From contig JAUXOG010000129.1 in NCBI GenBank assembly GCA_030682385.1, forward strand, positions 1 through 54,541: a stretch of 54,541 nucleotides of DNA, read 5' to 3'. The notes beneath the pieces are model-generated. The model did no database searches and had not been told where the DNA came from. It was given only the letters and a program-made list of their open reading frames with translations. The translations under genes were made by a program, and so were the position numbers. Origin of the DNA: Bacteroidota bacterium (GTDB lineage: Bacteria; Bacteroidota; Ignavibacteria; UBA10030; BY39). The number at the start of each line of letters is the position of its first letter. Position 1 is the stretch's first letter. Below, piece after piece: positions 1 through 50,997 of the stretch.

Positions 1-119
1 GAAGTTACGCAGAATCGACTTTTTGTCATGTTGAGCGAAGCGAAACATCTAAAAACAGCTCAAAATTGAGGTTTAAGATTCTTCACTTCGTTCAGAATGA
101 CTGTTCTGCGTAACTTCAG
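1..119. repeat. MITE-like palindromic element, copy 1 (left edge cut by window)
   Basis: Terminal inverted repeats GAAGTTACGCAGAA (1-14) and TTCTGCGTAACTTC (104-117) are perfect over 14 bp. The element matches the reverse complement of 50818-50938 with about eight mismatches over 117 bp. In the second copy the ends extend to CTGAAG/CTTCAG, so this copy lacks only its first two bases. Inside are two smaller hairpin units, around 26-50 and 79-103, in opposite orientation. No ORF is present, so this is a non-autonomous repeat. Confidence 0.85.
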
Positions 120-47613: not shown

Positions 47614-50600
47614 TTACTTCACCAATGTTAGCTTCCGCACTTCTACACTATTTCCACTCTGTAACTTGTAGATGTACATACCCGTGCTGAGTTTGGTTGC
47701 ATCAAACTTTACGTTGTACAACTTGCCGGCTTCGGCATTGCCGTTGAATAATATCGCAACTTCGTTTCCGAGTATGTTATAAACTTTCAACGTTGTGTAA
47801 TTGTCGGTTGCTAATTGATAATTGATAATTGTTGTTGGGTTAAACGGGTTAGGATAGTTCTGGTTTAACGCAAACACTGACGGGACTGCATCAACCGGGA
47901 CGTTAGTTGGGTTAAGCATTATTATCGGACCGAAGTAACTTACAAGTCCGTCGTTGTCCTGCTGCTTAAGCATGTATTGTTCGCTGCCGGTAGCATTTTC
48001 ATCAACCCAAGAATATTGCTGTGGCTTTAATGTTGAACCCGCACCAGCTTGGAAGCTTTCTTCGATAGTCTCGTATCCGTCAACTGACGGATTGTACTTT
48101 TGTACCCAGAAACCATAGTTGTTTACTTCGCTGATTGTTTCCCACTCAAGCTTCGCTGCGCCATCACTAACAAATCTGCCGACAAATGATGCGAGTTGGA
48201 TTGGTAAGCTCCCCGATGGGTCTGATAAATATATATCATCAAATATAGCATTGTCCGACGATCCCGTAGAGTGATTCCAAAAACATCCCATGTACCTCAA
48301 AGTTGATGCGGTGAAAGTATTATCGGATGTTGTGGATCCAATTTGAGTTGTTGTATTTCCTGGATTAGCTTGAGGGAAACTTGATGCATTACTTTCAGCG
48401 TACAACGACCAGTTATCTCCAGTTGGATTATACGTTACCTTTACGCTGATATATTCATTTCCATAATCATTACCAGAGATAATATTTGTGAAATTGGAAT
48501 TAGCGTCTGGTCCACCCGTGAAACGTGCTAATCTTATTGGGTCAGCTGTTCCTGACTGACCAATTATCACTGCATAACCGTCGCCGGTTGTAACGTCGTT
48601 CGTTGTTTTACACAAAATAAAAGCAATTCCGTAATTACCGGCATCAAAACCAGACGGGTCTGTTCTTGTTTGTCTAAAATTAAATGCCCAAGTCATAATT
48701 CCACCCGCAAGATTTAATTGTGTGGGGTAGCCAGTTAATGAATTTAAATCTATATAACAAAAATCCCTGCCCGCTGTTGTTGAACCAAGCTGCAAACGAT
48801 TTGAATTGATTTGAATGGCTGTGCTTGAAACAGTTTCAATTTCATTCCAAGTTAATGAAGTGGGAGTTGTTGGAGTGTTCCCAACAGTATTACTATTGGC
48901 CCGGTTGAAATCATCTAACTTATTAGTTGATGCTTGTATCGGTGCAGAACCAATCGTAAAGTTTGCGTTACTAATATCGTTTGTTGCAGCGTCAGCCGCA
49001 TCTGATACTCGCACTTTTACCGTTGTTGACGGAGTGTTTGGAATTGTCCATGAATAGGTACCGCTATTCGGTGTGCTTGCTGCGATAACTGTATAAGTTG
49101 TTCCATCGGTTGTGTATTCTAATTTTACGTTTGAAATTATACCGATTGTTATCCAAGTAATGTTGCGCGTTGACGCGATGGTCCAATTTTCTCCACCATT
49201 TGGTGAGGTAATGGTAAGGGAAGGTGGCGCAGTTGCTGCTGCTGCATCTACCATTCCATAACCTGTGTACCTATCCCAACCGGCGACCGATTCAACATTA
49301 ACTATATCCTGTGAAGTATTACGAAGTTGGCTACGAACTTGCTGTGAAGTCATTGACGGATATCTGGAGAAGATGAGTGCCGCTACGCCAGCAGCATAGG
49401 GTGTGGCAGCCGATGTTCCGTTAAAATATAAATCATAATCACTCGGGTCGTATCCGTTTGCTCCAACCCTGTCGGTTGTCGGGAGTATTGTTGGGGCAAT
49501 AACATCAACTGCATTAACTGCGTCTTTTGTAGTTGAACCATAATTCGACCCCCACCATCTTTCACCGTCGCAAGTATATCCGTTTGGGTCGGTGGAAACA
49601 CCAGGATTAACTTCGGTTAAGCTGCTACTGCTGCGTTTTCTATCGCCGCAATTCGAAGCAGCGCCAACGGCGACTACATTCGTGTTTGCGGCAGGATAAC
49701 TAATTGTAGATTTATTTTCATTACCCGTTGCAGCTAATACTACCGTTCCTTTATTCCAAGCATAAGTGCATGCAGTTTGGTTTGCAGCATCCTGAGTTGA
49801 AGCACCCAAGCTCATGCTTATTATTTTTGCACCCATATCGGCAGCGTAGTAGATAGCGTTATTAATATAACTGAAATACATTGCCCCGGTGTTGTCGGCT
49901 GCTTTTAGCGCCATAATTTTACATCCCGCTGCAATACCGGCAACACCTATGCTATTATTAGCAATTGCGGCCGCAACACCAGCACAAGCTGTTCCGTGTC
50001 CCGGGTCTGCGCTATTGTCATCAGGATTATTATCATTGGTTCCGAAATCCCAACCGTGCCAATCATCGACCTTACCGTTCACATCATCGTCGATACCGTT
50101 TGTTTCTTTTCCGGCGCCGGTTTCGCCAGGATTTGTCCAAATGTTTGCGGAAAGATCAGGATGCGACCACTCCACACCACCGTCGATGATAGCAATTGCT
50201 ATACTTGAACTGCCATAACCTTGCGTGTTACTCCACGCCGCTTCGGCATTTGCATCGAAGCCGACAGTACCAACCAACGGACCGTTATGTAAGTTGGTAC
50301 TCCAGTTATAACTCGGCATTTGTGCCGTGTTGTTATGCCCCCATTGTTTTGAATAATGCGGGTCGGTTGGAATAGCGGCATGATAAACTTGCCAGTCAGG
50401 ATTTGCAAACTCAACGTTTGGGTCTAAGGAATACTGATTTGCCACCGCTTCAATATCTAATGAAGTATCCACTTTTAAGAGCCAGATTCGATCGATACCA
50501 AGAATTTTTGATAACCGGACATCTTTTGGTGTGTAAATTTCATCTTTGCTTATGGAAAGTATTTTCAATTGTTGATGAAGTTGGTCGAGTGAGGTAATTC

Positions 50601-50799
50601 CCACCTGAGCTATCGTGCTGCCATTTTTTAAAACTTTAATGCCTGGAGCGATGGCTGCGCCAATATTATATTTCACAACAAGAATCCCCGGACGATAACC
50701 TTTCTTCATATTTTGGTCTTGACCGGATTTAATATTTCCGGTCATAACCACGCCGCTGAATCCGAATATTAGAAAGAGACTTATTAATAATTTATACAT
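47614..50799 (-). CDS. Secreted subtilisin-like (S8) serine protease with type IX sorting domain
   Basis: A 1061-aa secreted protease. Signal peptide (about 1-20), an inhibitor-like propeptide (about 35-140) and an S8 domain (about 145-520) with the catalytic triad Asp206 (AIIDGGVEW), His268 (GHGTACAG) and Ser463 (GTSAATPYAAG). An Asp-rich insert lies just before the His (about 234-266). An Ig-like domain follows (about 525-615, ITSPNGGENW), then a lectin/LamG-like region (about 620-840), a conserved module shared with the gene at 51216, and the sorting domain FALNQNYPNPFNPTT. A MITE sits 12 nt upstream of the start and overlaps the region of its GGAG site. It probably cleaves extracellular protein. 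Confidence 0.92.
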   Translation of the reverse strand: MYKLLISLFLIFGFSGVVMTGNIKSGQDQNMKKGYRPGILVVKYNIGAAIAPGIKVLKNGSTIAQVGITSLDQLHQQLKILSISKDEIYTPKDVRLSKILGIDRIWLLKVDTSLDIEAVANQYSLDPNVEFANPDWQVYHAAIPTDPHYSKQWGHNNTAQMPSYNWSTNLHNGPLVGTVGFDANAEAAWSNTQGYGSSSIAIAIIDGGVEWSHPDLSANIWTNPGETGAGKETNGIDDDVNGKVDDWHGWDFGTNDNNPDDNSADPGHGTACAGVAAAIANNSIGVAGIAAGCKIMALKAADNTGAMYFSYINNAIYYAADMGAKIISMSLGASTQDAANQTACTYAWNKGTVVLAATGNENKSTISYPAANTNVVAVGAASNCGDRKRSSSSLTEVNPGVSTDPNGYTCDGERWWGSNYGSTTKDAVNAVDVIAPTILPTTDRVGANGYDPSDYDLYFNGTSAATPYAAGVAALIFSRYPSMTSQQVRSQLRNTSQDIVNVESVAGWDRYTGYGMVDAAAATAPPSLTITSPNGGENWTIASTRNITWITIGIISNVKLEYTTDGTTYTVIAASTPNSGTYSWTIPNTPSTTVKVRVSDAADAATNDISNANFTIGSAPIQASTNKLDDFNRANSNTVGNTPTTPTSLTWNEIETVSSTAIQINSNRLQLGSTTAGRDFCYIDLNSLTGYPTQLNLAGGIMTWAFNFRQTRTDPSGFDAGNYGIAFILCKTTNDVTTGDGYAVIIGQSGTADPIRLARFTGGPDANSNFTNIISGNDYGNEYISVKVTYNPTGDNWSLYAESNASSFPQANPGNTTTQIGSTTSDNTFTASTLRYMGCFWNHSTGSSDNAIFDDIYLSDPSGSLPIQLASFVGRFVSDGAAKLEWETISEVNNYGFWVQKYNPSVDGYETIEESFQAGAGSTLKPQQYSWVDENATGSEQYMLKQQDNDGLVSYFGPIIMLNPTNVPVDAVPSVFALNQNYPNPFNPTTIINYQLATDNYTTLKVYNILGNEVAILFNGNAEAGKLYNVKFDATKLSTGMYIYKLQSGNSVEVRKLTLVK

Positions 50800-50810
50800 A
50801 TAAAATTTAC

Positions 50811-50945
50811 TCCATTACTGAAGTTACGCAAAAGAGTCATTCTGAACGAAGTGAAGAATCTGAAACCTCAAATTCGAGCTATTTTTAGATGTTTCGCTTC
50901 GCTCAACATGACAAAAAGTCAATTCTGCGTAACTTCAGTCCATTA
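50811..50945. mobile_element. 121-bp MITE with 7-bp target duplication
   Basis: The element (50818-50938) begins CTGAAGTTACGCA and ends with its perfect 13-bp complement. It is flanked by identical 7-bp direct repeats TCCATTA at 50811-50817 and 50939-50945, the mark of a transposition event. A second, inverted copy lies at 1-119. No ORF is present, so movement would depend on a transposase elsewhere. It sits just upstream of the protease start codon; the duplicated bases include the GGA of that gene's GGAG site. Confidence 0.88.
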
Positions 50946-50946
50946 T

Positions 50947-50997
50947 TTAAAAAAAGCCCACGACTCCCACCTGTTTCGGGCAGGTAAGTCGCGGGCT
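50947..50997 (-). terminator. Rho-independent terminator for the leftward gene at 51216
   Basis: On the - strand AGCCCGCGACT (complement of 50987-50997) pairs with AGTCGTGGGCT (complement of 50955-50965), 10 of 11, with an inner ACCTG/CAGGT stem, and is followed by a run of T residues. It lies about 220 nt beyond the stop of the gene. Confidence 0.7.

Follow-up and report, generated by a model that had tools for sequence, protein, structure and literature searches.

A described counterpart of the element reported here is MITEAba12 of Acinetobacter with its partner ISAba12, a system in which a non-autonomous element of about 113 bp has ends matching those of a coresident IS, is flanked by target duplications and has been active recently; its ends are 16 bp long and of the GGCTTTGTTGCA type, and its 9-bp duplications follow no clear motif (PMC6382973). 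The ISAba11 group, part of the IS701 family, produces 5-bp duplications (PMC7885321). An ISAba11-type element of A. junii has the terminal inverted repeat (TIR) TAGGACTTACGCA, a 5-bp duplication CTTTA and an HHEK motif. The ISPepr1 subgroup of IS4 has 5'-CT ends, 7–8-bp duplications, AT-rich targets, a YREK motif and a length of 1500–1600 bp (PMC2266710).

The element described here is a MITE of the same kind as MITEAba12, from which it differs in its 13-bp ends, in its 7-bp duplications of the form TWANTWA and in that its own assembly yielded no exact-end IS. It lies in the window, the whole 54,541-nucleotide contig C72 of a 3.38-Mb genome (G000, class Ignavibacteria) assembled in 140 contigs. 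It belongs to a real MITE family of a known kind that is, as far as searched, new in sequence: literature searches on Ignavibacteria MITEs and on the sequence of the inner hairpins gave no hits in the open literature, and an earlier description is possible. Related records are from Ignavibacteriales and other Bacteroidota MAGs.

Direct reading agrees to the base with the first-pass annotation, which had described a 121-bp element with 13-bp TIRs between perfect 7-bp copies of TCCATTA (Table 1). The two TIRs match at 13 of 13 positions. The inverted copy at the contig start, put at about 93% identity, measures 94%; it is cut by the contig end, with its first two TIR bases missing and its duplication unreadable there. 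The TIR is present in the window at these two MITE copies only, and no transposon with such ends was seen there, as had been stated. No ORF of at least 100 aa overlaps positions 50818–50938, and no Rfam match was found in the window. The whole MITE forms one long imperfect palindrome, with fold z-scores of −4.7 as DNA and −6.9 as RNA. Adjoining it at 50956–50996 is a further hairpin repeat, also dispersed, GCCCACGACTCCCACCTG..CAGGTAAGTCGCGGGC; similar ones flank a copy on contig C4 of the same genome.

Table 1 Features of the window copy and its surroundings (positions in the 54,541-nucleotide window)
Feature	Position	Strand	Remarks
Second MITE copy, subfamily 2	1..119	-	Truncated at contig start
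Subtilase-like ORF, Peptidase_S8 and Por secretion tail	47614..50799	-	Start codon 18 bases from MITE; MITE 5' of ORF
Left target-site duplication, TCCATTA	50811..50817	.	Read directly; identical to 50939–50945
MITE, 121 bp, subfamily 1	50818..50938	+	99.2% identity to subfamily consensus
Left TIR, CTGAAGTTACGCA	50818..50830	+	Read directly
Left arm of inner hairpin module, GTCATTCTGAACGAAGTGAAGAATCT	50836..50861	+	Tip A, short form ACGAAGTG
Right arm of inner hairpin module, AGATGTTTCGCTTCGCTCAACATGAC	50887..50912	+	Tip B, short form
Right TIR, complement of CTGAAGTTACGCA	50926..50938	-	
Right target-site duplication, TCCATTA	50939..50945	.	Read directly

The duplication copy nearer the subtilase-like gene reads TAATGGA on the ORF strand and is followed by G, giving a Shine–Dalgarno-like GGAG. 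Duplication of a target containing a Shine–Dalgarno-like sequence just upstream of an ORF is seen both here (TAATGGA with G) and at an insertion on contig C12 (L007, TTAAGGA); the site has therefore been regenerated beside the gene. No promoter or terminator consensus was found at the window insertion. Under a simple ORF rule, 26 of the 29 G000 insertions fall in the gaps between predicted ORFs, which is what AT-rich targets would lead one to expect.

A count over the 3.38-Mb genome gave 83 occurrences of the 13-bp TIR and none of a reversed-pattern control. The TIR end together with the first inner bases matches 45 sites, sequence similarity recovers about 40, and a genome of the same genus (G001) carries about 40 related copies, so that the element, like bacterial MITEs in general, is present as multiple dispersed copies; two genomes of the same family (G002 and G004) contain no such ends at all. 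From G000 and G001, 55 distinct complete copies with readable ends were tabulated, most of them 79–140 bp long, in which the TIR is conserved at 96–100% per position. Of the ten 121-bp copies in the window's subfamily, seven match its consensus at every base; the G001 consensus shares 97.5% identity with it, and the G001 copies are nearly uniform among themselves. This near-identity within each species shows that a recent burst took place separately in each. Many contigs of G000 start or stop inside a copy, as expected of a repeat that breaks short-read assembly.

Aligned with their flanks, most of the other copies carry a 7-bp duplication; a family without such flanks was what the first-pass annotation had named as evidence against transposition. 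The duplication is exact over 7 bp in 39 of the 55 copies, against about 1.8 matches expected by chance when each left 7-mer is paired at random with the right 7-mer of another copy, and three more have 8 bp; 13 copies are without a clean duplication. The total of 42 of 55 is slightly conservative, as a 241-bp reading (L022), which a degenerate partner end had produced spuriously, was kept in the table as a duplication-less row. The pooled target is a palindromic, AT-rich 7-mer, TWANTWA, with T in 39 of 42 at position 1, A in 38 of 42 at position 3, T in 38 of 42 at position 5 and A in 35 of 42 at position 7.

Empty sites, which had been proposed as a check, were recovered in both directions between the two species, a result that favours transposition: at eight orthologous loci without the element, a single uninterrupted target is present. 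Four insertions of G000 are absent from G001, where the targets TTAAGGA, ATATTAA and TAAATTA stand in full and the fourth, TAATTCA, has a small length difference nearby; the query in this direction took in about the first 17 of the 29 sites. Conversely, four insertions of G001 are absent from G000, with TAAATAA in full and point or small differences in or beside the other three targets. A fifth G001 site (L261), at which the alignment is gapped at the junction, was not counted. The species thus differ in their insertions. No G001 counterpart of the window copy was found, and the direct proof from empty sites concerns its sister copies.

Transposases of the PF01609 family in G000, G001 and G032 were screened for ends of this type. 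Full-length transposons that share them, also named beforehand as something to look for, were found in two genomes, with exact ends in G064, of the same order, and with one mismatch in G000 itself. The resident IS of G000 (on C108) is 1181 bp long and has the ends CTGATGTTACGCA, which differ from the MITE TIR at one base, base 5 (T-type rather than A-type), a duplication TTATTAA and an intact 360-aa transposase; none of the other PF01609 transposases of G000, nor those of G001, has such ends. The exact-end IS (G064, C25), reached by a search with the resident protein, is 1074 bp long, with CTGAAGTTACGCA at both ends, a duplication TTAATAA and an intact 336-aa transposase. The two transposases are about 25% identical, and both carry a complete YREK motif (Y-2-R-3-E-6-K). 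Apart from the TIR of 13 bp and a few further bases, IS and MITE have no sequence in common, and the MITE therefore does not derive from either known IS by simple internal deletion. At its left end, the exact-end IS (L158, 1312–1410) has an inverted repeat, CATAAGCGAAATAAGG..CCTTATTCGCTTATG, that surrounds the transposase start codon and possibly limits translation.

In assembled G000, no IS bounded by exact A-type ends was detected: the exact TIR matches inspected were MITE copies, contig-end fragments, an isolated chance match inside a coding sequence (C27) and an isolated match (C103) bordering a longer element whose left end is T-type and which lacks a matching duplication. End fragments of the exact-end IS stand at contig edges in G003, of the same family, and fragments occur also in G141. 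G032 has two T-ended MITEs with other contents, 204 bp (L175) and 129 bp (L184), beside fragments of a T-type IS, which suggests that the type of end follows the transposase. Another T-ended MITE of different content, 162 bp long, was seen in G063 (C530, L317); perfect 7-bp duplications flank this element (CTGCTAA) and the 204-bp one (TTATTAA). Contig C16 of G000 (L314) holds a T-ended copy with a diverged version of the present core and the duplication TTATTTA.

Among named elements, ISAba11 is the closest to the partner IS, which resembles the ISAba11 group in transposase homology (one 41%-identical relative carries the annotation ISAba11-group transposase), in its 13-bp TIR with the common inner TTACGCA and in its length of about 1.1 kb. 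Against the NCBIfam model transpos_IS701_2 (NF049921), with a cut-off of 250 bits, the resident transposase scores 312 bits and the exact-end transposase 175. Similarity to ISAba11/IS701 transposases is thus found, whereas the HHEK motif is replaced by YREK; the ends read CTGA[A/T]GTTACGCA, and the duplication is 7 bp in both IS, in contrast to 4 bp in IS701 and 5 bp in ISAba11. Within IS4, where duplications span about one helix turn, a 7-bp duplication fits only ISPepr1, which has the same 5'-CT ends, 7–8-bp duplication class, AT-rich preference and YREK motif but a length that does not fit, and the NCBIfam IS4 models score the partner transposase below their cut-offs. Relatives at 41–43% identity from Thiothrix and from two plasmids of cyanobacteria share the CTGATGTTACGC ends but show no readable duplications. 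The partner IS would best be described as a little-described sister branch of ISAba11, IS701-like in sequence with IS4-like features by published criteria (PMC2266710), and is not firmly filed in either family.

Length classes of the MITE are set by the tips of its two inner arms. One arm ends in ACGAAGTG or ATCCGCCAGAGGCGGATG and the other in CGCTTCGCTC or CTCCCGACTAGTCGGGATC; long and short tips are present in both sequence subfamilies, one of which shows all four combinations, so the tips have been exchanged or replaced repeatedly. Across 50836–50912 of the window and in copies from both species, the swapped types are short GAAG-type tips and TCCCG..CGGGA or TCCGCC..GGCGGA palindromes. G001 has a further tip, TCCCGCTCGTAGAGCGGGAG, and deletion forms of 79–111 bp. 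The 79-bp form, without one arm, was found at four G001 sites. At three of these it is flanked by a 7-bp duplication of its own, and for two of the three the orthologous site is uninterrupted. The full inner hairpins thus seem not to be needed for movement. The simplest reading is that the 79-bp form moves as such; the same deletion recurring after insertion is a possible alternative.

Beyond this family, 15 of 98 genomes from the order contain the paired hairpin module. Inverted repeats scoring at least 10 flank seven of the 23 modules tested in genomes other than G000 and G001; shuffled flanks reach this score in 0.7% of cases. One of the seven is the present MITE family; the other flanking repeats are GCTGTCCAAAAAGT, AGGCTGTsCAAAAAG, GGyTGACTAAAAAGT (twice in one genome), AAGCCTTTGmAAAA and AACTGTCCGA, a small sample in which some repeat types may be related to each other. 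Related two-hairpin cores inside other TIRs were seen in the same order at L268, L269, L271, L283, L280 and L284. We tentatively suggest that the two-hairpin core may be a promiscuous module with exchangeable tips, wrapped independently by several unrelated IS families with their own ends, although this is less probable than not.

It is very probable, on comparison of sequences, that the element is a non-autonomous MITE moved in trans by an ISAba11-like DDE transposase. The transposase of an ISAba11-like IS would bind the 13-bp ends in trans, cut out or copy the MITE and join it to a 7-bp staggered cut at the AT-rich palindromic target TWANTWA, and gap repair would leave the 7-bp duplication. 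Against this reading count the 13 copies without a clean duplication, the absence of an exact-end IS from assembled G000, the failure to detect either transposase type in G001 despite its fresh copies, and the short stretch of sequence that IS and MITE share. There is very little chance that the element is instead a static palindrome or one of REP/REPIN type that owes its dispersal to a RAYT-like enzyme or to recombination and is flanked by heptamers that match by coincidence. The inner arms are indeed, like REP/REPIN, short palindromes widely dispersed in the order, often without these TIRs; but the TIRs are common to full transposons, exact duplications number 39 in 55 copies where 1.8 are expected, orthologous targets are uninterrupted, and REP/REPIN elements insert without target duplication. 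The contention of the first-pass annotation that transposition, not a static REP, is at work therefore stands for the TIR-bounded unit, for which the empty sites refute the REP/REPIN reading; it does not extend to the inner hairpin pair alone, a dispersed palindromic repeat of the order for which that reading is possible. Gene conversion or recombination among copies is unlikely to have added to their multiplication beside transposition: hairpin tips are reassorted between subfamilies and 13 of the 55 copies have no matching duplications, but most copies have a duplication of their own and unique flanks.

For a transposed MITE, we infer that this transposase lineage moved the present copies, the window copy among them, and likewise which of its two branches did so. 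We favour, with modest confidence, an IS with exact A-type ends that drove the copies and has since been lost or is missing from the draft assemblies, in keeping with the exact-end IS in G064 and with the end fragments at contig edges in G003 and in G141; against this, assembled G000 has no such end, although a collapsed multi-copy IS should leave ends at contig edges. The serious alternative, possible but not the probable one, is that the resident T-type IS drives the copies and tolerates the one-base difference. It is intact and the only close transposase found in G000, where one copy combines an A-type with a T-type end and the T-ended copy with the same kind of core carries its own duplication, TTATTTA. 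However, A-type ends are found on about 45 copies and T-type ends on few, G064 has an IS whose ends are exactly A-type, and G001, in which neither transposase type and hence no T-type IS was detected, carries many fresh A-type copies.

The family offers clean, recent MITE bursts in a little-studied group, together with their target motif, two-way empty sites and candidate transposases that make trans-mobilization directly testable, and it points to a sister branch of ISAba11 that carries YREK and makes 7-bp duplications. If the core is indeed a promiscuous module, MITEs here would be built as a generic core joined to IS ends and not by internal deletion of an IS; a core shared by unrelated MITEs would, if confirmed, bear on the origin of MITEs that have no internal similarity to any IS.
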